Assembly (NCBI RefSeq): GCF_013363755.1
Contig: NZ_CP054840.1
Location: 3,155,501-3,219,500, forward strand
Length of the DNA stretch: 64,000 nucleotides
Origin: Comamonas antarctica
Lineage (GTDB): Bacteria > Pseudomonadota > Gammaproteobacteria > Burkholderiales > Burkholderiaceae_C
Reading direction: 5' to 3'
Position 1 is the stretch's first letter, and each line of letters begins with the position of its first letter. The translations under genes and the position numbers were made by a program. Below are positions 11,464 through 25,047 of this stretch, piece after piece. The notes below the pieces were generated by a model. That model did no database searches. It was given only the letters and a program-made list of their open reading frames with translations, and was not told where the DNA came from.

Positions 11464-12708
11464 TCAGATCCGCTTGAAGATCAGCGAGCCGTTGGTCCCG
11501 CCGAAACCGAAGTTGTTCTTCAGCGCCACGTCGATCTTCATGTCCCGCGCGGTGTTCGCGCAGTAATCGAGATCGCATTCGGGATCCTGCGAGAAGATGT
11601 TGATCGTCGGCGGCACTTTCTGGTGGTGCAGCGCCAGCACGGTGAACACGCTCTCGATGCCGCCGGCGCCGCCCAGCAGGTGGCCGGTCATCGACTTGGT
11701 CGAGCTCACGACCGTCTTCTTCGCATGGTCGCCGAGCGCGGCCTTGATGGCATTCGTCTCGTTGAGGTCGCCCAGCGGCGTGGAAGTGCCATGGGCATTG
11801 AGGTAGTCCACCTGGTCGGCGTTCATCCCTGCATTGCGCAAAGCATTGAGCATGGCGCGGCGCGGGCCGTCCATGTTGGGTGCCGTCATGTGGCCGGCAT
11901 CGGCGCTCATGCCGAAGCCCGCCAGTTCGGCGTAAATCTTGGCACCGCGGGCCTTGGCGTGCTCGTACTCTTCGAGCACCAGCATGCCGGCGCCCTCGCC
12001 CAGCACAAAACCGTCACGGTCCTTGTCCCAGGGGCGCGACGCCGTCTTCGGGTCGTCATTGCGCGTGGAAAGCGCGCGCATGGCGGCAAAACCGCCGACG
12101 CCCAGAGGCGAGACTGTTGCTTCCGTGCCGCCGGCGATCACCACGTCGGCGTCGCCGTACTCGATCATGCGACCCGCTTCACCGATGCAATGCAGACCGG
12201 TGGTACATGCCGTGACCACCGCGAGGTTCGGCCCCTTGAAGCCAAACCGCATGGACACATGTCCGGCCACCATGTTGATGATGGACGCGGGCACGAAGAA
12301 CGGCGTGATGCGGCGCGGGCCGCGGTTGCTCAGTTCGATCTGGGTGTTCTCGATCAGCGGCAAGCCGCCAATACCCGAACCCACGACGCAGGCAATGCGC
12401 GTGGCCAGATCATCGGACAGGGCCTCGCCCGTAGGCAAGCCCGCATCCTGCACGGCTTGCGCCGCAGCCGCAATGCCATAGTGGATGAAGGTGTCCATCG
12501 CCCGCGCATCCTTTGCGCTGAGATAGGACTCCACATCAAACCCTTTGACCTCACCTGCGATCTTGCAGGCAAAGTTCGACGCGTCGAACTTGGTGATGAG
12601 GTCAATTCCGGACTGGCCGGCCAAAAGATTGGCCCAGGCATCCGCCACCGTGTTACCTACGGGGCTGATGCAACCCAGGCCGGTCACGACAACGCGACGA
12701 CGGCTCAT
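11464..12708 (-). CDS. fabF: Beta-ketoacyl-ACP synthase II
   Basis: Elongating condensing enzyme of type II fatty acid synthesis; adds malonyl-ACP units to acyl-ACP. The 414 residues include nucleophile Cys168 ([10 protein letters not shown]), His306 ([11 protein letters not shown]), Lys338 and His343 ([13 protein letters not shown]), the full KAS II catalytic set. The N-terminus [18 protein letters not shown] is canonical. It is separated from acpP by 43 bases and followed by a strong terminator, so it is the last gene of the plsX-fab cluster. Confidence 0.97.
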
Positions 12709-12751
12709 GCGTAAAACTTTCTCTACTTGACGCGCAGGGCGCGCAGGCCTA

Positions 12752-13027
<276 letters not shown>

Positions 13028-13092
13028 CTAGCTGTTCAGGGCAAAACCCCTGCACAACCTGCCGCCCGGATATACGGCATGACTCTTGACAA

Positions 13093-13836
13093 TTACATGT
13101 ACATGCCACCGTTGACATGCAATTCCTGGCCTGTGACATAGCCCGCACCCGTGGATGCGAGGTAGGCCACCGCGTGTGCGATGTCGGACGGCTGGCCCAG
13201 TTGCCCCAGGGCAATCTGCGATTGCAGCGCCTGGCGCTGCTCCTGCGGCAGCTGCGCGGTCATGTCGGTTTCAATGAAACCAGGGGCCACGCAGTTGACG
13301 GTGATGCCGCGGCTGCCGAGCTCGCGCGCCAGGGCGCGCGTCATGCCGGCAACACCCGCCTTGGCGGCAGCGTAGTTGGCCTGGCCCGGGTTGCCCGATG
13401 CGCCGACCACGCTGGTGATCGAAATGATACGGCCAAAGCGCTGCTTCATCATCGGACGAATGGCGGCGCGGCTCACGCGAAAGACCGCCTTGAGATTGGT
13501 GTCGATCACCGCATCCCAGTCGTCGTCCTTCATGCGCATGGCCAGCTGGTCGCGCGTGATGCCGGCGTTGTTGACCAGCACGTGCAGGCCGCCCTGGGTC
13601 TTGACGATGTTCTCGACCAGCGCCTCGACGGCCGCGCCGTCGGTGACGTTCAGATTGACGCCGCGGCAGCCGGGAAAGGCTGCCAGGGCTTCGCCAATGC
13701 GCTCGGCGCCGCTGTCGGAGGTGGCCGTGCCGACCACCTGGAAGCCGCGGCTGGCGAGTTCGAGCGCAATGGCGGCACCGATGCCGCGCGTGGCGCCGGT
13801 CACCAGGGCCACTTGGGGTTTGGAGGATTCAGTCAT
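13093..13836 (-). CDS. fabG: 3-oxoacyl-ACP reductase FabG
   Basis: NADPH-dependent short-chain dehydrogenase reducing 3-oxoacyl-ACP to 3-hydroxyacyl-ACP. The protein has 247 residues: cofactor loop TGATRGIG (13-20), NNAG (89-92), Asn114, and the catalytic Ser142, Tyr155 and Lys159 (YAAAK). ATG 13836 is selected because it overlaps the fabD stop by four bases and yields the family length. The 52-codon upstream extension lies inside fabD. Confidence 0.96.
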   Translation of the reverse strand: MTESSKPQVALVTGATRGIGAAIALELASRGFQVVGTATSDSGAERIGEALAAFPGCRGVNLNVTDGAAVEALVENIVKTQGGLHVLVNNAGITRDQLAMRMKDDDWDAVIDTNLKAVFRVSRAAIRPMMKQRFGRIISITSVVGASGNPGQANYAAAKAGVAGMTRALARELGSRGITVNCVAPGFIETDMTAQLPQEQRQALQSQIALGQLGQPSDIAHAVAYLASTGAGYVTGQELHVNGGMYM

Positions 13837-14777
13837 GCGATCAGTTCTTTCACTTCGGCCAGCGTGGCCGGGTCGTAGAGGGCTGCGCCCACGAGTTCGG
13901 CATCGATGCGGCGCGTCAGGCCTGCCAGCACCTTGCCCGGGCCGCATTCGATGAGATGGGTGATGCCGCGGGCCTTCATGGCCTGCACGCATTCGACCCA
14001 GCGCACCGGACCGAACGCCTGGCGGTACAGCGCCTCGCGGATGGCATCGGGCTCGGTCTGCACCGTGACGTCGATGTTGTTGATGACCGGGATCTGCGGC
14101 GCGGCCAGCGCGATCTGCGCCAGTGCGGCGCGCAGTTTCTCGGCGGCGGGCTTCATCAGGCTCGAATGGAACGGCGCCGACACCGGCAGCGGCAGCGCGC
14201 GCTTGGCGCCCGCGGCCTTGAGGGCTTCACAGGCCTTTTCGACAGCCAGCTTGCTGCCGGCAATGACGGTCTGTGCGGGATCGTTGAAATTCACCGCCTC
14301 GACGGTTTCGGCGCCGCCCAGGCTTGCCGTGACTTCAGCGCAACCGGCCGTCACCGCGTCGGCATTCATGCCCAGGATGGCCGCCATCGCGCCCGTGCCC
14401 ACCGGCACGGCTTCCTGCATGGCCTGCGCACGCAGGCGTACCAGCGGTGCGGCCTGGGCCAGCGTCAGCACGCCCGCGGCAACCAGCGCCGAGTACTCGC
14501 CCAGCGAATGGCCGGCCAGCGCTGCGGGCGTTGCGCCGCCTTCGGCACGCCAGACACGCCATGCGGCCACGCCCGCGACCAGCATCACCGGCTGGGTGTT
14601 GGTGGTCAGCGCCAGCGCTTCCTTCGGGCCTTCGTGGATCAGCCGCCCGACATTCTCGCCGAGCGCTTCGGAGGCTTCGGCCAGGGTCTCGACGACCACC
14701 GGATGGTCTTGCCAGGCGTCCAGCATGCCCACGGATTGCGAGCCTTGGCCGGGAAAGACAAATGCAAATTTCTTCAT
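13833..14777 (-). CDS. fabD: Malonyl-CoA:ACP transacylase FabD
   Basis: Loads malonyl groups onto ACP for fatty acid synthesis. The 314-residue protein starts MKKFAFVFPGQGSQSVGM and has nucleophile Ser91 in GHSLGE, an Arg in the substrate position (RLRAQAM) and His204 in VSAPFHSSLM. Its stop overlaps the fabG start (ATGA). It lies 49 bases downstream of fabH. Confidence 0.97.
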   Translation of the reverse strand: MKKFAFVFPGQGSQSVGMLDAWQDHPVVVETLAEASEALGENVGRLIHEGPKEALALTTNTQPVMLVAGVAAWRVWRAEGGATPAALAGHSLGEYSALVAAGVLTLAQAAPLVRLRAQAMQEAVPVGTGAMAAILGMNADAVTAGCAEVTASLGGAETVEAVNFNDPAQTVIAGSKLAVEKACEALKAAGAKRALPLPVSAPFHSSLMKPAAEKLRAALAQIALAAPQIPVINNIDVTVQTEPDAIREALYRQAFGPVRWVECVQAMKARGITHLIECGPGKVLAGLTRRIDAELVGAALYDPATLAEVKELIA

Positions 14778-14826
14778 GCGGTCTTCTTTTAGTTTTTTCG
14801 AAAAAGGCGGTCAGGGCCGCCCGTGG

Positions 14827-15804
14827 TCACAGCTTGAGCAGCACCGCGCCCCAGGTGAAGCCCCCGCCCACCCCTTCCAGCAGCAGGTTCTGGCCGGGCT
14901 TGATCTGGCCGGAGCGCACGCCATGGTCGAGCGCCAGCGGAATCGATGCCGCCGAGGTGTTGCCATGCTGATCGACGGTGACGATGACCTTCTCCATCGG
15001 CAGCTTGAGCTTCCTGGCGGTGCTCTGCATGATGCGGATGTTGGCCTGGTGCGGAATCAGCCAGTCGATGTCGGCCTCGGTCATGCCGGCCTTGTCCAGG
15101 GTGGCGCGCGCGGCCTTCTCGAGCACGCCCACCGCCAGCTTGAACACCGCCTGCCCGTCCATCTTCAGCACCGGGTCGCCAATGATCTTGCCGCCCGACA
15201 CATTGCCCGGCACGCACAGGATGTCGCTGTGCTTGCCGTCGGCATGCAGATCGCTGGCCAGGATGCCGGGCTGGTCGGACGCTTCGAGCACCACCGCGCC
15301 CGCACCGTCGCCAAACAGCACGCAGGTCGTGCGGTCGTTGAAATCGAGGATGCGGCTGAACACCTCGGCGCCGATCACCAGCGCGCACTTGGCCGCGCCG
15401 GTCTGGATCAGCGCATCGGCCACGGTCAGCGCGTAGACGAAGCCGCTGCACACCGCCTGCACGTCGAATGCCGGGCAGCCGCTGGCGCCGAGCTTGTGCT
15501 GCAGGATCGCGGCGCTCGACGGGAAAACCATGTCGGGCGTGGACGTGGCAACGATGATCAGGTCCACTTCGTCGGCCGTGCGGCCTGCGGCTTCAAGCGC
15601 CTTGCGCGCGGCTTCGAGGCCCAGGTCGCTGCTGGTGACATCGGGTGCGGCAAAGTGCCGCGCGCGGATGCCGGTGCGCTCGACGATCCACTCGTCCGAA
15701 GTCTCAATGCCGCGCGTGGCCAGATCGGCCTGGATGTCCTGATTGGTCACGCGCCGGGGTGGCAGATAGCTTCCGGTGCCGGTGATGCGGGAATAGATTC
15801 TCAT
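14827..15804 (-). CDS. fabH: Beta-ketoacyl-ACP synthase III FabH
   Basis: Starts fatty acid synthesis by condensing acetyl-CoA with malonyl-ACP. In 325 residues it has the catalytic Cys119 (AVCSGFVYA), His252 (IPHQANIRI) and Asn282 (HGNTSAAS), a complete KAS III triad. Compare the divergent ketosynthase at 20969-22903, which keeps Cys, His and Asn but lacks the HQAN motif. It lies 12 bases after plsX and is probably cotranscribed with it. Confidence 0.97.
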
Positions 15805-15816
15805 CTTTTTAAAGGC

Positions 15817-16863
15817 TCAAGACGCCGACAGGGGAGCAGCCGCAATGGCAGGCGTGGCGTCCAGCAAGGGCGCGGCACGGGCAATCCGGGAACGGACGCG
15901 GTCGAGCAAGTTATTGCAGGCCGCATCATACGCCCGGCTCAGCGCGTACTCGAAAGCAATCGCATCCGCGGAACCATGGCTCTTGAACACCAGGCCGCGC
16001 AGGCCCAGCAACGCCGCGCCGTTGTAGCGCCGGTGATCCATGCGCTTCATCAGCGCCGACAGCACCGGGTAGGCGATGACGGCGGCGAGCTTGGTCAGCA
16101 GGTTGCGCTTGAACTCCTGCTTGAGGCCGTTGCTGATCATCGAAGCCACGCCCTCGCTGGTCTTGAGCGCGACATTGCCGACGAAACCGTCGCAGACCAC
16201 GATATCGACCGTGCCCTTGAAGATGTCATTGCCTTCGACGTTGCCGAAGAAGTTGATCTCCCCGGCCTGGCCCGCCGTGCGCAGCAATTCGCCGCTGCGC
16301 TTGATGATGTCGCTGCCCTTGATGGCTTCCTCGCCGATGTTGAGCAGGCCGACCGACGCCTTGGAGCCTTCGTCAAGCACCGACACCAGCGCCGTGCCCA
16401 TGAACGCGAACTGCAGCAGGTGTTCGGCCGTGCAGTCGACGTTGGCACCCAGGTCGAGCACGGTGGTCGCGCGGCCCAGGCCGTTGGGCAGCTGCGCGGC
16501 AATCGCGGGACGGTCGATGCCGTCGAGGGTCTTGAGCACGTAGCGCGCAATGGCCATCAGCGCGCCGGTGTTGCCGGCCGAGACGGCGGCGGCGGCAGCG
16601 CCGGCCTTGACCTGCTCGATGGCCACGCGCATGGACGAGTCTTTCTTGCGCCGCAGTGCGACTTCGACCGGGTCGTCCATGCCCACGACTTCGGAAGCCG
16701 CGACCAGGGTGACGCGTTCATGCTGGAAGGATTCCAGGCTCTCGGTCTTGCCGACGAGCAAAAGGTGCGCCTTGGGATGTTTGTCGAGAAACTGACGGCA
16801 CGCCGCGAGCGTGACGCGGGGGCCATGATCGCCCCCCATGCAGTCAACAGCCAGTGTGATCAT
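15817..16863 (-). CDS. plsX: Phosphate acyltransferase PlsX
   Basis: Converts acyl-ACP to acyl-phosphate, which PlsY uses to acylate glycerol 3-phosphate, so it links fatty acid and phospholipid synthesis. The 348-residue protein starts [15 protein letters not shown], the family hallmark, and contains SAGNTGALM and [14 protein letters not shown]. It is placed between rpmF and fabH as in most proteobacteria. Confidence 0.96.
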
Positions 16864-17847: not shown

Positions 17848-18462
17848 ATGCTTGAATCCCCTGCCAATACGAACCCTTTGCGCCAGCGGGCCCTGATCCT
17901 GGGCTCGACCTCGCGCTACCGCCGCGAACTGCTGGCGCGCCTGGGCCTGCCCTTTGAAACGGCCGCGCCCGAAGTCGACGAGACACCGCTGCCCGATGAA
18001 GCGCCGCGCGCGCTGGCCCTGCGCCTGGCCGAAGCCAAGGCACGCGCCGTGGCCGCGCTGCACCCCGACGCCATCGTGATCGGCTCCGACCAGGTGGCCG
18101 ATCTCGCGGGCAAGCCGCTGGGCAAGCCGCTGACGCACGAGCGCGCGGTGCGCCAGCTGCAGGCCATGCGCGGCCAGACGGTGCTGTTCGAGACCGCGGT
18201 GAGCGTCGTATGCCAGGCCAGCGGGTTTGCGCAGACCGCGCTGGCCACGGTGGAAGTGCAGTTCCGCGACCTGGCCGACGACGAGATCGAGCGCTACCTG
18301 CGTGCCGAGCAGCCCTATGACTGCGCCGGCAGCGCAAAAAGCGAGGGCCTGGGCATCACGCTGCTGACGCAGATCCTCAATGACGATCCGACGGCGCTGA
18401 TCGGCCTGCCGCTGATCCGCACCGCCCAGCTGCTGCGCGCCGCGGGGCTGCAACTGCCATGA
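17848..18462 (+). CDS. yceF: Maf-like nucleotide pyrophosphatase, YceF type
   Basis: House-cleaning enzyme; the YceF subgroup hydrolyses 7-methyl-GTP. The 204-residue protein has the Maf loop GSTSRYRR (19-26), then AAPEVDETPLPDE, catalytic Asp81 in GSDQVADL, and CAGSAKSEGLGITL. These match the YceF subgroup rather than the dTTP-specific YhdE subgroup. Its stop overlaps the next gene by four bases (ATGA). Confidence 0.9.
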   Translation: MLESPANTNPLRQRALILGSTSRYRRELLARLGLPFETAAPEVDETPLPDEAPRALALRLAEAKARAVAALHPDAIVIGSDQVADLAGKPLGKPLTHERAVRQLQAMRGQTVLFETAVSVVCQASGFAQTALATVEVQFRDLADDEIERYLRAEQPYDCAGSAKSEGLGITLLTQILNDDPTALIGLPLIRTAQLLRAAGLQLP

Positions 18463-19247
18463 GCGGCGCCGCCAACACCGCGCGCGGCACGCTGTACCTC
18501 GTGCCCGCGCCGCTGGACTTCGGCTGCGACAGCCAGGCGCCGCTGGGCGATGTGCTGCCCGAGGCCACGCTGCGCCGCGCCGCCAGCCTCACGCACTGGA
18601 TCTGCGAGAACGCCAAGAGCACCCGCGGCTACCTGAACCGCATCGCACCCCTCCACCCGCTGGCCGCGCCGCTGCAGGCGCAGTCGATCGTCGAGCTGCC
18701 GCGCGAAGTGCACAAGAAAGGCGACCATGGCGACAAGGGCAGCGCGGTGTTCGACGCCAAGACCCTGCTCGCGCCGGCCTTGCAGGGCCACGACATCGGC
18801 CTGGTCAGCGAAGCCGGCATGCCGGCGATTGCCGACCCGGGCAGCTCCGTCGTGCGCGCCGCGCATGACCTGGGGCTGGCCGTGGTGCCGCTGGTCGGTC
18901 CGGTGTCGCTGCTGCTGACGCTGGCCGCGAGCGGCCTCAACGGCCAGAACTTCGCGTTTGTCGGCTATCTGCCCCAGGACGGCGCGGCGCGCGCCCAGCG
19001 CATCCGCGAACTCGAAGCCTTGGCGCTGCGCCAGGGCCAGACCCAGCTGTTCATCGAGACGCCCTACCGCAACCCGGCGCTGTGGCAGGCGCTGCTGCAG
19101 ACCTTGCAGCCCAACAGCCGGCTCGCGCTCGCCGCCGGCCTCACGCTGGCCACGGCGCGCATCGAGAGCCGGCTGGTGCGCGACTGGAAACAGCTGCCCG
19201 TCCCTGCCGACAACCGCACGCCGGTGGTGTTTGCGCTCGGACGCTGA
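18459..19247 (+). CDS. SAM-dependent methylase, RsmI/tetrapyrrole methylase family
   Basis: The 262-residue protein belongs to the tetrapyrrole-methylase fold family that includes RsmI, which 2'-O-methylates 16S rRNA C1402. It starts GTLYLVPAPLDFGC and contains SEAGMPAIADPGSSVVRAAH, LVGPVSLLLTLAASGL and FVGYLPQDGAAR, all RsmI-like. It is shorter and less canonical than true RsmI and lies in the maf-methylase position conserved in Burkholderiales, so it is probably a paralogue. It is coupled to yceF by a 4-base overlap. Confidence 0.85.
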   Translation: MSGAANTARGTLYLVPAPLDFGCDSQAPLGDVLPEATLRRAASLTHWICENAKSTRGYLNRIAPLHPLAAPLQAQSIVELPREVHKKGDHGDKGSAVFDAKTLLAPALQGHDIGLVSEAGMPAIADPGSSVVRAAHDLGLAVVPLVGPVSLLLTLAASGLNGQNFAFVGYLPQDGAARAQRIRELEALALRQGQTQLFIETPYRNPALWQALLQTLQPNSRLALAAGLTLATARIESRLVRDWKQLPVPADNRTPVVFALGR

Positions 19248-19307: not shown

Positions 19308-20042
19308 ATGGACACTGGGAGTTGGTTCGTCCAGCTCGATGCCTGGCAGGTCATGGCATTGGGTCTGGTCTTTTTCGGCAGCCTGTACTGCCTGGGCGGC
19401 TGGGGCATGACGGCGCTCACGCGCAGTCTCGCGCGGCGCGGCATCGGCCGGGTGCTCGATGCGCGCGCGCTCAAGCCCGACCAGTTGCGCCGCGAATGGC
19501 GCCAGTCGCTGCACTCGGTGCTGATCTTCGGCATTGGCATGGTCGTGCCCTGGGGATTGCTGCAATTGGGGTGGGCGCAGCTCGCGCCCAGCGCCAGCGC
19601 GGGCCGCATTGCGCTCGAGATCGCCGCGCTGCTGGTCTGGAACGATGTGCATTTCTGGCTCAACCACCGGCTGCTGCACACGCGCCGGCTGGTGCGCTTC
19701 CATGGCGACCACCACCGCTCGGTGGTCACGACGCCCTGGTCGACCTACAGCTTCCACCCGATCGAAGCCATCATGCTGGGCAATATCATCCTGCTGCCGA
19801 TGCTGGTGCATGACTTCTATTTCTGGTCGCTGGCCAGCGTGCCGGTGCTGAGCCTGCTGCTCAATGTGATCGGCCACGCCAACTACGACTTCTTCCCGCG
19901 CGTGTCCGACACCCACCCGCTGGCCGCGAGCCGGCGCCACCACCTGCACCACGCGCGCCCGGCCGGCAACTACGGCTTTGCGCTGGCTTTCATGGACCAG
20001 TTGATGCGCACCCGGGTCGAGTCCGCGCCGGGTCCGCGCTGA
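19308..20042 (+). CDS. Sterol desaturase/fatty acid hydroxylase family membrane enzyme
   Basis: Membrane diiron oxygenase of the sterol desaturase fold (SUR2/ERG3/carotene hydroxylase superfamily). The protein has 244 residues from ATG 19308, which has GGAG five bases upstream; an ATG at 19284 is less likely. The three His clusters are H120RLLH, H132GDHH and H211HLHH, with membrane segments near 14-34, 70-92, 102-115 and 160-190. The substrate, probably a lipid chain, is unknown. It is the first gene of a four-gene plus-strand cassette and ends exactly where the next gene begins. It comes 60 bases after the RsmI-like gene and could share its transcript. Confidence 0.88.
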   Translation: MDTGSWFVQLDAWQVMALGLVFFGSLYCLGGWGMTALTRSLARRGIGRVLDARALKPDQLRREWRQSLHSVLIFGIGMVVPWGLLQLGWAQLAPSASAGRIALEIAALLVWNDVHFWLNHRLLHTRRLVRFHGDHHRSVVTTPWSTYSFHPIEAIMLGNIILLPMLVHDFYFWSLASVPVLSLLLNVIGHANYDFFPRVSDTHPLAASRRHHLHHARPAGNYGFALAFMDQLMRTRVESAPGPR

Positions 20043-20951
20043 ATGGGTTGGCGGCTGCGCCACTGGCGCGACTGGCAATCCGTGGCCTATATGCTGGCCT
20101 TGCCGCTGCTGGTCTGGTGGCAATGGACGCATGGCTGGCACTGGCTGCTCTACGGCCTGACCCTGTTCCTCACGCTGGGCGTGGGCGTGATCCACCACAA
20201 CCACACGCATCTGCGCATGTGGCGCGGCCGCCGGGCCAATCGCTTCACGGACTACTGGCTCACGCTGCTGCAGGGCCACCCGACCTTTGTGTTCTGGCCC
20301 GCGCATGTCGCCAACCACCACCGCTTTCGCCACGGCCCGCGCGATATCGCGCGCACCTACCGGCGCGAGTTCGGCGGCGACACCAACCACCTGTGGGGCT
20401 ATCTGATCCACCCGGTACAGGCCGCGCTGGTGCTGTACCCGCTGTTCCTGCACTGGCTGGGCCGGCTGCGCATCCATTCGCCCGGCGCCTTTCGCTACTG
20501 CATGGGCCAGTACGCGCTGTGGCTGGGCAGCTGGGCGCTGCTGCTGGCGCTCGACTGGAAGAAGGCCCTGCTGTTCGTCATCGTGCCGCAACTGCATGGA
20601 CTGCACTGGCTGCTGGCGACCAACTACCTGCAGCACGCGCATGCCGACGGCCGGCCGCTGGGCCGCGCGCAGCGCCAGGCGCCGGACACGCCGCTGAACT
20701 ACGCGCGCAATTTCGAAGGCTGGGTCAACCCGCTGCTGTTCAATATCGGCCTGCACACCGCGCACCATGAATGCCCGCAGGCCCACTGGTCGGAGCTGAC
20801 GCGGCTGCATGCCGAGCATTATCGCCAGCGCGTCGATCCCGCGCTCAACGAGGGCGGGCTGCTGCCCTACATGGGGCGGGTGTTCGTGCTGGGCCTGTTG
20901 CGGCCCGCAGCGCGCACCCGGCCGCAGATGCCGCCCGGCTCCATCGAATAA
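20043..20951 (+). CDS. Membrane fatty acid desaturase
   Basis: Membrane diiron desaturase of the FA_desaturase family. The 302-residue protein has His boxes HHNHTH (51-56), HVANHHRFRH (88-97) and HTAHHE (238-243), plus a conserved-looking NYLQHAH near 194-200. Membrane segments flank these boxes. The ATG at 20043 directly follows the TGA of the sterol-desaturase-like gene with no spacer. Two adjacent membrane oxidases of different families next to a ketosynthase suggest that the acyl chain is both unsaturated and hydroxylated. Regiospecificity cannot be read from the sequence. Confidence 0.9.
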   Translation: MGWRLRHWRDWQSVAYMLALPLLVWWQWTHGWHWLLYGLTLFLTLGVGVIHHNHTHLRMWRGRRANRFTDYWLTLLQGHPTFVFWPAHVANHHRFRHGPRDIARTYRREFGGDTNHLWGYLIHPVQAALVLYPLFLHWLGRLRIHSPGAFRYCMGQYALWLGSWALLLALDWKKALLFVIVPQLHGLHWLLATNYLQHAHADGRPLGRAQRQAPDTPLNYARNFEGWVNPLLFNIGLHTAHHECPQAHWSELTRLHAEHYRQRVDPALNEGGLLPYMGRVFVLGLLRPAARTRPQMPPGSIE

Positions 20952-20968
20952 CCACTGCCCTAGAAGCC

Positions 20969-22903
20969 ATGCCTGTTGCCTATTCCAACGTATACCTTCA
21001 ATCCGCGGGAATGTTCCTGCCCGGCGCCCCGGTCGACAACGCCGGCATGGATGCCTACGTCGCGCCGCTGAACCGCATCTCCGAGCGCCTCAAGCGCCGC
21101 ATCCTGGCCGAGAACGGCATCCAGACGCGCCACTACGCCATCGACGGCGCAGGCGCGACGGTATTCAGCAACGCGCAGATGGCGGCCGGCGCGATCCAGG
21201 CCACGCTGGCCGCGGCCGGCAAGTCGCTGGCCGACATCGGTTTCCTGTCCAGCGGCTCCTCGGGCGGCGATGCGCTGATGCCGGGCTTTGCGAGCATGAT
21301 CCAGGGCGAGATGGCCGCGCCGCCGATGGAGACGCTGTCGGTGCATGGCGTCTGCGCGGCCAGCGTGGGCGCGCTGCAGGCCGCGGCCATGGCCGTCGAA
21401 AGCGGCGCGCACCCGCTGGCGCTGGCCGTGGCCAGCGAGATGCCGTCGCGGCTGTTCAAGCGCTCGCGCTTTGCGGCCCAGGGCTATGACACCGATTTCG
21501 ACGCGCATTTCCTGCGCTGGATGCTGTCGGACGGCGCGGGCGCGGCGCTGCTCGGCGGCCCGCAGGCCCTGCCCCAGGCGGGCGGCCTGCGGCTGCAGCT
21601 CAAGTGGACCCATCTGCGCAGCTTTGCGGGCGACTATCCGGTCTGCATGCAGCTGGGCATGACGGCCGACCGCAGCCAGAGCCATCTCGACTTCCCGGCC
21701 TGGGGCGATGCCGAGGCCGCGGGCGCGCTCGCGCTGCGCCAGGACATCCGGCTGCTGCCGCACCTGTTCGATGTCTGCATCCACGAATACGCCGATCTCG
21801 CGCACAAGGGCTGGGTGCCCGAGCGCGGCATCGACCATTTCCTGTGCCACTACTCGTCCGAACGCTTCATTCCCGTGGTCGACGACCTGCTGAACAAGGC
21901 GCAGCTGTCGATCCCGCGCGCGCGCTGGTGGAGCAATCTGGCCTGGCGCGGCAACACCGGCGCGGCCTCGATCTTCATCATGCTGGCGGAATTCCTGGAG
22001 CAGCGCGGCGCGGCGCTCAAGGCCGGCGAGACCGTGCTGTGCTTCATTCCCGAGTCGGGGCGCTTCACGGCCGGCTACATGCTGTGGGAGGTGGTGGCGG
22101 ACACTCCGGCCGAAGCCGCGGCCGCGTATCCGCGCCAGCCCGCGGCCAGCCATGCCATTGCCGATGACGCGCTGCCCGATGTCAGCACCATTGCGCCGCC
22201 GCACGATCCGGCCGCGGCGCCGCGGGCCCTGGCGCCGCTGCTGACCGAGCTGGCCAGCATCTGGCAGGACTACCGGTCGCAGGTCTGGCGCACGCCGCTG
22301 CTGCAGCGCATCCGCACGCGCCAGCTGCAGACCGCCGACTACGTGCGCTGGATGGGCCAGTGGATTCCCCAGGTGCGCGAAGGCAGCCTGTGGATGCGCG
22401 AGGGCGCGGCCTCGCTGACCGGCGACTACGCGGCGCTGGCGGCGCTGATCGACCTGCACGCGGGCGAGGAGCAAAACGATTTCAGGATACTGCACAGCGA
22501 CTACCTCAAGGCCGGCGGCACCCAGACCGACATCGGCGCGCTGCGCCGCAACCCCGGCGGCGAGGCGCTCAATGCCTATCTGCACAGCCTGGCGGCCACG
22601 CCCGACCCGATCGGCCTGCTGGGCGCGATCTACATCATCGAGGGCACGGGCCAGCGCATCGTGCCCAGCCTGCTGCCGCTGCTGCGCGCGGCGCTGCCGC
22701 TGCCGCCCGATGCCTTCCGCTTCCTCGAATACCACGGCGCCAACGACGAGCACCATCTCGAGCGCTGGCTGATGGCGGTGCAGATGGCGCTGGAACTAGA
22801 CACCACGGGCACGGCCCAGCAGGCCATCGTGCAGACCGCGCGCAACACGGCGGCGATGTATCTGATGCAGTTCCAGCATGTGCTGGGGCCGGACGGACAG
22901 TAA
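20969..22903 (+). CDS. DarB/StlD-like ketosynthase fused to a heme-oxygenase-like diiron oxidase domain
   Basis: The 644-residue protein appears to have two enzymes. Residues 1 to about 378 are a KAS III-fold ketosynthase like DarB/StlD, which join two acyl units to a cyclohexanedione in dialkylresorcinol and stilbene pathways. Cues are NGIQTRHYAID, nucleophile Cys129 (HGVCAAS), FLRWMLSDGAGA, His294 (FLCHYSSERF), Asn329 (RGNTGAAS) and PESGRF near 361-366. After an Ala/Pro linker (about 380-420), residues about 421-644 are mostly helical and resemble iron-containing oxidases of the TenA/UndA/CADD type. Candidate metal ligands are His497, Glu500/501, Glu558 and Glu587, with the set His589-x3-Asp593-x2-His596. 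The start is at ATG 20969, since the upstream frame overlaps the desaturase gene. No aromatase (darA) is nearby. The ketosynthase call is strong by motif memory; the oxidase call is moderately strong; the product is unknown. Confidence 0.82.
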   Translation: MPVAYSNVYLQSAGMFLPGAPVDNAGMDAYVAPLNRISERLKRRILAENGIQTRHYAIDGAGATVFSNAQMAAGAIQATLAAAGKSLADIGFLSSGSSGGDALMPGFASMIQGEMAAPPMETLSVHGVCAASVGALQAAAMAVESGAHPLALAVASEMPSRLFKRSRFAAQGYDTDFDAHFLRWMLSDGAGAALLGGPQALPQAGGLRLQLKWTHLRSFAGDYPVCMQLGMTADRSQSHLDFPAWGDAEAAGALALRQDIRLLPHLFDVCIHEYADLAHKGWVPERGIDHFLCHYSSERFIPVVDDLLNKAQLSIPRARWWSNLAWRGNTGAASIFIMLAEFLEQRGAALKAGETVLCFIPESGRFTAGYMLWEVVADTPAEAAAAYPRQPAASHAIADDALPDVSTIAPPHDPAAAPRALAPLLTELASIWQDYRSQVWRTPLLQRIRTRQLQTADYVRWMGQWIPQVREGSLWMREGAASLTGDYAALAALIDLHAGEEQNDFRILHSDYLKAGGTQTDIGALRRNPGGEALNAYLHSLAATPDPIGLLGAIYIIEGTGQRIVPSLLPLLRAALPLPPDAFRFLEYHGANDEHHLERWLMAVQMALELDTTGTAQQAIVQTARNTAAMYLMQFQHVLGPDGQ

Positions 22904-22913
22904 GGAGGCGCCC

Positions 22914-23837
22914 ATGAAGAACGAATACGCCGAGCACGCCTGGGACGAACGCGACCCCAGCCCCTGGCTGGCGCTCTACCTCGACCAGAGCACGCCGCTG
23001 CCCGACGAGGTCAAGGCGGCCTGGCTGCGCGACTGCAGCGGCGGCTCGCGCCAGTTCTTCCTGCCGCTGATCCGGCCGCTGGCGCGGCTGTCGATGATCA
23101 TCATCCAGGTACTGAAGGTGTTCCTGCCCAAGCGCTGGTCGCACTCGATGCTGCTGCACCGGCTGCTGGCCTTCAGCATGAACCGCTTCGTCTCGCCCGA
23201 GGCCAACTGGCTGATCATGCGCCACTTCCACCTGGGCTCGCAGGTGCTGTCCTTCGTCGCCGCGAACGCGCCCGTGCCGGTGGGCACCACGCCGCTCGCG
23301 CCGATGGCCATCGACGAGGTCAAGGACGAGCTGTTCCTGCGCCACGACCTGAACCTGTTCAATTTCGTGATCCGCCTGAACAAGGCGCTGCGCGCCGCAG
23401 GCAGGGAGCTGGTGGCCGTGCCCGAGCCGGATTTCTCCATGCTGCACGAGCCCGCGCTGCGCATCGAGGACATGCCGCGCGGCCGCTTCAACCTGCTGGA
23501 CCTGCAAAGCGCGATCGAGATCTATACGCCGGTCTACCAGCTGCTGCTGACCGACAACGACTTCTGGCGCGCCAGCAACTCGCTGCAGCTCGACGAGACC
23601 GTGGCCATCTACTGCGCCAAGATCCTGGCCTCGCCCGAGCACCTGGTGCTGCTCAACAACAAGCACCCGATGGTGCCGATGAGCACGCTCTATGCGGCCT
23701 ACCGGCTGGTGCTGCATGGACTGTCGACGGAGATGCTGCATGCGCTGCTGATGCGCATGGCCAGGGGAGAAATTCCCATCCCGGCGCGCGAGTTTGCGAA
23801 GATGCACGACGCGGCGGAGATGGTGGTTGGGGAATGA
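22914..23837 (+). CDS. Conserved-looking hypothetical protein in lipid cassette
   Basis: Not recognised. The 307-residue product starts at ATG 22914 with an excellent AAGGAGG site and lies 10 bases after the ketosynthase-oxidase gene, so it is almost certainly cotranscribed. It is probably mainly helical, with a hydrophobic stretch at about 49-72 (FLPLIRPLARLSMIIIQVLK) that could contact the membrane. Scattered His and acidic residues (RHFHLGSQ near 103-110, DELFLRHDLNLFNF in the middle) could bind metal, but no standard catalytic motif is visible. Possible roles are a membrane-associated partner, a further lipid-modifying enzyme or a carrier-handling protein; none can be chosen. Confidence 0.75.
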   Translation: MKNEYAEHAWDERDPSPWLALYLDQSTPLPDEVKAAWLRDCSGGSRQFFLPLIRPLARLSMIIIQVLKVFLPKRWSHSMLLHRLLAFSMNRFVSPEANWLIMRHFHLGSQVLSFVAANAPVPVGTTPLAPMAIDEVKDELFLRHDLNLFNFVIRLNKALRAAGRELVAVPEPDFSMLHEPALRIEDMPRGRFNLLDLQSAIEIYTPVYQLLLTDNDFWRASNSLQLDETVAIYCAKILASPEHLVLLNNKHPMVPMSTLYAAYRLVLHGLSTEMLHALLMRMARGEIPIPAREFAKMHDAAEMVVGE

Positions 23838-23867
23838 AGACGCCCTGTATCTGGAGGACAGGGCATT

Positions 23868-23942
23868 CACCCTTCGACGCGGCCGGCGAGGCAGGCTCAG
23901 CGCGAATGGGAAACCCGTTCGCCCTGAGCCTGTCGAAGGGTG
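23868..23942. repeat. REP-like imperfect inverted repeat, copy 1
   Basis: The outer arms CACCCTTCGAC (23868-23878) and GTCGAAGGGTG (23932-23942) enclose inner arms AGGCTCAGCGCGAATGGG and CCCGTTCGCCCTGAGCCT, paired at 16 of 18 positions with a 3-base turn. The right arm shares a core with copies at 33427-33470 and 38794-38819. It lies between the convergent lipid cassette and sppA and could act as a two-way transcription stop. A separate small GCCCTGT/ACAGGGC hairpin precedes it at about 23842-23864. Confidence 0.75.
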
Positions 23943-23985
23943 GACGGCCTGCCCTATGAATATATAAGGCGCCGCCCCAGCGAGC

Positions 23986-25047
23986 TCAGCGCAGCACCGG
24001 CAGCGCCGACCGCAAGGTCTGCACCGCCCCGCCGCCAATCGCCGCGCCGAATTTCTTCGCCAGCCGCTCGGCCACGTTGTCGCGGCGCGTGTAGTCGATG
24101 ACTTCCTCGACCTTCACGACCTCGCGCGCCACGTAGTCGAGGTTGCCGAGCTTGTCGGCCAGGCCCATATCGACCGCCTGCTGGCCGGTCCAGAACAGGC
24201 CGCTGAAGGTATCGGAGTCGATCTTCAGGCGCTCGCCGCGGCCGTTCTTCACGGCAGTGATGAACTGCTGGTGGATCTGGTCGAGCATGGTCTGCGCATG
24301 CGCGCGCTGGGCTTCGGTCTGCGGGCTGAACGGGTCGAGAAAGCCCTTGTTCTCGCCGGCGGTCATCAGGCGGCGTTCGACGCCGAGCTTTTCCATCGTG
24401 CCGGTGAAGCCGAAGCCGTCCATGAGCACGCCGATGCTGCCGACGATGCTGGCCTTGTCGACGAAGATCTCGTCGGCCGCGGCGGCAATGTAATAGGCGG
24501 CCGAGGCGCAGGTTTCCTCGACCACGGCGTAGACCGGCTTGTCGTGCTTGGCCTTGAGGCGCCGGATCTCGTCGTTGATGATGCCGGCCTGCACCGGGCT
24601 GCCGCCGGGCGAGTTGATCAGCAGCACCACGGCCTTGGAGCCGCTGTCCTCGAACGCGCTGCGCATCGCGGCGACCACGAACTCGGCGCTGGCTTCGGCA
24701 CCGGTGGCGATTTCACCCTTGATGTCGACCACGGCGGTATGCGGGCCGCTCACGGTGGTGGTGGCGACATCGCGGCCGAACATCATCCAGCTCAGCAGCA
24801 AGAGCACCAGCAGCCAGGACATGCGGCCGAACAAGCGCCAGCGGCGCGCGGCGCGCTGTTCGCGGATGCTGGCCATGACCAGGTTTTCCAGCACTTCGCG
24901 CTCCCAGCCCGGCGACTGCGCATGCACGGCGCCAGGATCGGCGGCTGCCGACGCGGCGTCTTCGGGCCGTGCCTGCGCCCACAGGTCGGGTGCCGCGGGA
25001 GGAAGAGGTTCGGAGCCCGGGGCTCCTGGAGGCAAAGGGGTGGTCAT
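23986..25047 (-). CDS. sppA: S49 family signal peptide peptidase (SppA-like)
   Basis: Membrane-bound serine protease that digests cleaved signal peptides. The 353-residue short form has a Pro/Ala-rich cytoplasmic N-terminus and one membrane segment at about 77-90 (LLVLLLLSWMMF). The single protease domain contains NSPGGSPVQAG, nucleophile Ser182 (ETCASAAYYI) and general base Lys234 (GENKGFLDP). It is about half the length of the E. coli tandem-domain protein, typical of the SohB/short SppA type. It lies downstream of the HAD and rluC genes on the same strand. Confidence 0.92.
   Translation of the reverse strand: MTTPLPPGAPGSEPLPPAAPDLWAQARPEDAASAAADPGAVHAQSPGWEREVLENLVMASIREQRAARRWRLFGRMSWLLVLLLLSWMMFGRDVATTTVSGPHTAVVDIKGEIATGAEASAEFVVAAMRSAFEDSGSKAVVLLINSPGGSPVQAGIINDEIRRLKAKHDKPVYAVVEETCASAAYYIAAAADEIFVDKASIVGSIGVLMDGFGFTGTMEKLGVERRLMTAGENKGFLDPFSPQTEAQRAHAQTMLDQIHQQFITAVKNGRGERLKIDSDTFSGLFWTGQQAVDMGLADKLGNLDYVAREVVKVEEVIDYTRRDNVAERLAKKFGAAIGGGAVQTLRSALPVLR

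Follow-up and report, generated by a model that had tools for sequence, protein, structure and literature searches.

Results

A unit of three parts, comprising a ketosynthase (KS) joined to a predicted heme-oxygenase-like diiron oxidase (HDO) and a protein of the family DUF6999 (PF22523), is real, conserved across phyla, and undescribed to the extent that searches of open-licence PubMed Central (PMC) papers reveal. We examined it in Comamonas antarctica, within a stretch of 64,000 nucleotides (contig NZ_CP054840.1 of assembly GCF_013363755.1, positions 3,155,501 to 3,219,500; hereafter the window). Here, the unit belongs to a cassette of four intact open reading frames on the + strand (19308-23837), which are separated by gaps of 0, 17, and 10 bases, the tight same-strand packing that an initial annotation had described. 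A membrane hydroxylase and a membrane fatty acid desaturase precede the KS-HDO fusion and the DUF6999 gene. Purifying selection acts on each of the four (24 pairwise comparisons against genes of six relatives gave dN/dS of 0.13-0.31), and the base composition of the cassette is unremarkable.

The KS, HDO, and DUF6999 core is linked in four phyla

Linkage was tallied across 87 loci, made up of the best 80 of 144 DUF6999 loci together with L090-L096. The tally leaves out L081-L089, short pieces that mostly duplicate L090-L095, L006, or the window, and hence G196; loci were not reduced for relatedness, and the set is biased to close kin. It holds 30 loci from Burkholderiales, 36 from Bacillota (Paenibacillus, Cohnella, and one titled Bacillus), 17 from Bacteroidota, one from Acidobacteria, one alphaproteobacterial, and two gammaproteobacterial. 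We found KS, HDO, and DUF6999 on one strand in all 87, and matches to KS and HDO accompany DUF6999 in 80 of 80 loci of the first set. The gap between HDO and DUF6999 is at most 150 bases in 85 of the 87. The two exceptions are an acidobacterial metagenome-assembled genome (L054, 5060-7901), where two adjacent Pfam-less genes with similar-looking starts split KS-HDO from DUF6999, and a Bacteroidota locus (L068), where another PF00487 desaturase lies between them. KS and HDO form a single protein in 83 of 87 loci; they are two genes in the alphaproteobacterial locus (L094) and in both gammaproteobacterial ones (L095 and L096), and the frame is broken in L065. A second alphaproteobacterial locus beyond the 87 (L148) again encodes the core as separate genes. 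The usual Paenibacillus version consists of two genes only.

The core parts also come and go together. Among 53 genomes of the window's genus, KS-HDO and DUF6999 are both present in the same 40 and both missing from the same 13. Of 398 Pseudomonadota genomes, nine carry DUF6999, and precisely these nine score in the top tier with the HDO profile (314-332 bits); in 77 further genomes, the profile reaches 97 bits or less. Distance matrices of KS, HDO, and DUF6999 correlate with r of 0.82-0.96 (84 loci, omitting L026, L039, and L065; host kinship not removed). The core is rare and patchy. Across 60 genomes, one per genus of the family, DUF6999 occurs in the window's own alone; its prevalence is 2/149 in the family of G223 and 1/148 in the order of G368, and among 14 named control genomes only Caulobacter vibrioides carries it.

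These neighborhoods bear on the proposal in the initial annotation that the four genes are linked as one unit. No unlinking was seen in relatives, and all four genes stand together in 28 of 30 Burkholderiales loci; the unit that spans phyla, however, is the three-part core.

Two membrane enzymes were added in particular lineages

The first two genes lie outside the core and have been recruited to it. The hydroxylase (19308-20042, + strand; 244 aa) belongs to the PF04116 superfamily (74.7 bits; Pfam cut-off 31) and has three His boxes, at residues 115, 132, and 211. Its frame is open from 19284, which makes 19308 one of two possible starts. Its TGA is followed directly by the ATG of the desaturase (20040-20045). 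The desaturase (20043-20951, + strand; 302 aa) matches PF00487 (73.3 bits; cut-off 29.7), again with three His boxes, at residues 51, 88, and 238.

Counting a gene as present at a phmmer score over 60, we found the hydroxylase on the same strand in 28/30 Burkholderiales and 15/17 Bacteroidota loci, and on the other strand in 2/36 Bacillota loci. This kind of desaturase occurs in all 30 Burkholderiales loci and in none of the 57 others. Both genes are lineage additions. G316 (L093) gave no hydroxylase match and its desaturase is interrupted by a stop, yet the frames of KS-HDO and DUF6999 remain open; the core can therefore be kept without the two membrane enzymes. The window genome has one match each to the hydroxylase and the desaturase (E ≤ 1e-5), both inside the cassette.

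Other accompanying genes are few. PLD-family genes of two dissimilar subfamilies lie directly upstream in L022, L090, and L091, and a transporter-acyltransferase-ligase fusion adjoins the alphaproteobacterial core L094. Few as they are, these cases point to membrane lipids. Directly upstream of the KS in both gammaproteobacterial loci is a membrane-like, Pfam-less protein of 188 residues (L095:11941-12507 and L096:9639-10205).

The KS domain is a diverged relative of StlD and DarB

The core enzyme in the window is a fusion of 644 aa (20969-22903, + strand), identified by Pfam, NCBIfam, and alignment to StlD, with Pfam scores of 28.7 bits for PF08541 (cut-off 26.6) and 35.2 bits for PF14518 (cut-off 28.9). 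Its KS domain covers approximately residues 6-376 (20984-22096, + strand). The initial annotation had called this domain StlD/DarB-like, and we agree: StlD/DarB is its top curated NCBIfam family, and residues 6-374 align to StlD (5gk0) with 206.9 bits. The alignment places a triad at Cys129 (21353), His294 (21848), and Asn329 (21953). These three residues never vary in the 85 loci compared; conservation counts for KS and HDO omit L039 and L065.

The domain resembles StlD (isopropylstilbene) and DarB (dialkylresorcinol, DAR) over its full length and in its Cys-His-Asn triad. Unlike them, it is fused to or stands beside an HDO and falls below both curated cut-offs, with 308.5 of 450 bits for NF005293 (StlD/DarB) and 239 of 550 bits for NF053539 (DarB). 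All seven relatives scanned likewise fall below both. The KS domains of Bacillota, Bacteroidota, and Acidobacteria come near the StlD/DarB cut-off, at 424-440 of 450 bits, while the best DarB score among the eight KS scanned is 395 of 550. The window KS, at 308 bits, is among the most diverged of them. The cassette further differs from DarB systems in having DUF6999 in place of the DarA partner and no acyl carrier protein gene inside. DarA was not named among the 14 window proteins scanned, and no genome-wide DarA search was made.

The HDO domain has an altered set of candidate metal ligands

The second domain of the fusion covers approximately residues 421-644 (22229-22900, + strand). Its model is confident (pLDDT of 92) and matches the heme oxygenase-like (HO) fold in fold searches, in keeping with its earlier reading as heme-oxygenase-like. 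Conservation identifies eight candidate metal ligands: Glu471 (22379), His497 (22457), Glu501 (22469), Asp504 (22478), Glu558 (22640), His589 (22733), Asp593 (22745), and His596 (22754), all on the + strand. These ligand-like residues are conserved in 85 of 85 loci, but Glu471 is replaced by Asp in 51 of them.

The first ligand-bearing helix of characterized HDOs carries an ExxH motif whose His is a metal ligand. The core HDOs have ExxD here instead (85/85), with an invariant His, His497, seven residues ahead of Asp504 (85/85). In all 21 second-tier HDOs compared, the residue aligned with Asp504 is His and the one aligned with His497 is Tyr; 3dde, MboA, and AetD likewise have His in place of Asp504. 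The second half of the site is shared: Glu558, His589, Asp593, and His596, that is, a conserved Glu plus HxxxDxxH, occur at the same places in 85/85 core loci and 21/21 second-tier HDOs. The cassette HDO resembles UndA, CADD/pABA synthase, HrmI, MboA, and AetD in its modeled fold and differs from them in its ExxD, its upstream invariant His, and its attachment to a ketosynthase. Among its closest known kin are the orphan structure 3dde (Sden_3740) and the second-tier HDOs that stand alone. The second-tier proteins differ from it in the His that aligns with Asp504 and, in seven of eight genomes inspected, in having an AMP-binding partner rather than a KS. The HDO superfamily has about a dozen validated members (PMC13108848).

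The Burkholderiales oxidase is altered, as judged from sequence. The mean HDO identity is 0.33 between Burkholderiales and Bacillota, compared with 0.58 between Bacillota and Bacteroidota; DUF6999 identity is approximately 0.5 among all three groups. Position 502 is Gln in 30/30 Burkholderiales loci and His in 55/55 others. This divergence and residue switch, alongside the added desaturase, suggest a changed substrate or product.

The second-tier HDOs have partners of their own. In seven of eight genomes inspected (of the 77), the HDO gene either adjoins an AMP-binding acyl-ligase-like gene or forms a fusion with it, and a short-chain dehydrogenase lies downstream in both loci scanned. At the eighth locus, L124, the scanned frame gave PF14518 only. 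The AMP-binding partner hints at activated acyl substrates. Ketosynthase-HDO and ligase-HDO pairs look like two ways of presenting an activated acyl group to an oxidase. This set of an AMP-binding ligase, a stand-alone or fused 3dde-type HDO and, in the two loci scanned, a short-chain dehydrogenase is present in gamma- and alphaproteobacterial genomes (L149-L154, L106, and L118) and looks like another acyl-oxidizing pathway.

DUF6999 is a predicted enzyme with invariant polar residues

The fourth gene (22914-23837, + strand; 307 aa), whose ATG at 22914 is preceded by AAGGAGG, had been recorded as an unknown protein. The family does have a name, DUF6999, which the protein matches with 419 bits (PF22523; cut-off 27). 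The label is otherwise apt, in that we found no described function for DUF6999 or PF22523 in the open-licence PMC literature. The protein has no match in the PDB by sequence, nor by Foldseek at E ≤ 0.001. Its model is all-helical, with invariant residues at His104, His144-Asp145, Asp227, His268, and Glu273. The pattern H...HD...D is the motif of HD-domain metalloenzymes; the DUF6999 residues compared with it are His104, His144-Asp145, and Asp196/Asp227, none of which varies where present. No HD-domain chain is among the fold matches listed, although absence from these is no proof. DUF6999 is the diverged part of the core in the gammaproteobacterial loci (approximately 0.25 identity).

The cassette occupies different sites in different genera

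In the window, the cassette is bordered on the left by a tetrapyrrole-methylase-like gene (18459-19247, + strand), which lies near sppA in cassette-free relatives, and on the right by an sppA-like peptidase gene (23986-25047, - strand). The convergent gap between DUF6999 and sppA holds a strong hairpin (23862-23950; fold z-score of -7.83 for 23838-23975), a possible two-way terminator. It is built on a TTCGACAGGCTCAG-type repeat, which has three window matches with at most one mismatch (0.01 expected) and which also lies beside sppA at the empty site.

We searched 19 relatives for this site. In 16 of them, approximately 1.5 kb or less separates the methyltransferase-like gene from sppA, and no cassette gene intervenes. 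Fifteen of these have no DUF6999 match, and one (G379) carries the cassette elsewhere; the remaining three gave no methyltransferase within the piece covered. A clean empty site is that of the sister genome G463, which spans approximately 200 bases between proteins 92-95% identical to the window's and which belongs to a genome without any of the four cassette genes. Together with the presence of the core in 40 of the 53 genomes from the genus, this supports the description of the cassette as accessory in the initial annotation. At the window site, gain and loss are indistinguishable. In the genome G389 (L145 and L146), sppA is in two frames, perhaps through a frameshift or sequencing error.

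Across genera, the cassette is at different places. The window's arrangement, with maf and the methyltransferase beside the cassette, recurs in only three of the 30 Burkholderiales loci within the flanks covered (L001, L002, and L026). One of these, L002, is from a record titled Pantoea sp. 18069; its maf, methyltransferase, and sppA are 88-94% identical to the window's, which marks the contig as Comamonas-like and probably either mislabeled or a contaminant. The initial annotation had the acyl chains probably coming from the fab cluster at 11464-16863. This is an ordinary housekeeping cluster (five genes scanned), and because the site is common to only three of 30 loci, its nearness says little on the acyl source; we regard that link as weak.

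Discussion

We lean, with modest confidence, toward a role of the cassette in the biosynthesis of a fatty-acid-derived lipid by successive condensation, oxidation, and modification. Primary metabolism would supply a fatty acyl unit, which the KS would load on Cys129 and condense with a second acyl unit; kinship to StlD and the triad argue for the condensation, and the substrates are presumed. The tethered HDO would then oxidize the condensed product with a diiron-type site and O2. Here, the HO fold and the invariant ligand-like residues are the basis, from which the metal, the use of O2, and the reaction are predicted. DUF6999, given its constant linkage and its invariant His, Asp, and Glu, would carry out a further obligatory step, perhaps release, cyclization, or another oxidation that depends on a metal. 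The two membrane enzymes of Burkholderiales, hydroxylase and desaturase, would afterwards act on the alkyl chains within the membrane. A membrane-associated lipid is the probable product.

A more specific proposal, which we put forward tentatively, is that KS, HDO, and DUF6999 are an undescribed lipid core shared across phyla. The KS would hand its product to a tethered diiron oxidase with rearranged HxxxExxD ligands, and thence to an enzyme from a family without a recognized fold. The route would be O2-dependent and free of DarA, would lead to an undescribed class of condensed fatty-acid lipid, and would have been retuned in Burkholderiales through a changed oxidase and two added membrane oxidases.

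Rather less probable, in our judgment, is a DarA-free route to a dialkylresorcinol or cyclohexanedione, in which the KS builds the ring as DarB or StlD does and the HDO, with or without DUF6999, replaces the DarA aromatase; the initial annotation had raised such a replacement, or a decarboxylation of the product by the HDO, as hypotheses, and they retain that standing. StlD/DarB is the best curated family of the KS, and the KS domains of the other phyla approach its cut-off. DarB is listed as the DAR cyclase and DarA as the aromatase (PMC3949708), and darA and darB mutants make no HPR, whereas a darC mutant retains some (PMC6403133), so that a core of two or three proteins would be enough. Moreover, Delftia tsuruhatensis, which encodes this KS-HDO at 81% identity, has an antiSMASH "resorcinol" locus (PMC8248536); this may be the same cassette under another label. 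Against such a route, none of the eight KS scanned reaches the StlD/DarB cut-off and all stay well short of that of DarB, with the window KS among the most diverged, and the available parts of the HDO review literature gave no precedent for aromatization by an HDO. DarA itself was sought only among window proteins.

More doubtful still is a route in which the KS condenses acyl units head to head and the HDO, acting in the manner of UndA, then decarboxylates the product or cleaves a C-C bond oxidatively, yielding a long-chain alkene or ketone. That the four genes are chance neighbors, unrelated enzymes of lipid metabolism, is very improbable and largely refuted. The core does occur in other phyla without the hydroxylase or desaturase, but Burkholderiales keep all four genes despite differing flanks, the genome's sole hydroxylase and desaturase matches belong to the cassette, and G463, with its empty site, has none of the four.

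A KS joined to an HO-like oxidase, always with DUF6999 in the loci seen and spread over four phyla, suggests a class of lipids that annotation has missed or labeled "resorcinol" or "FabH". DUF6999 gains a functional context, and the HDO superfamily gains a clade with an altered metal motif. The core is open to early testing, as DUF6999 occurs in Caulobacter vibrioides, a genetic model, and the usual Paenibacillus version comprises two genes.
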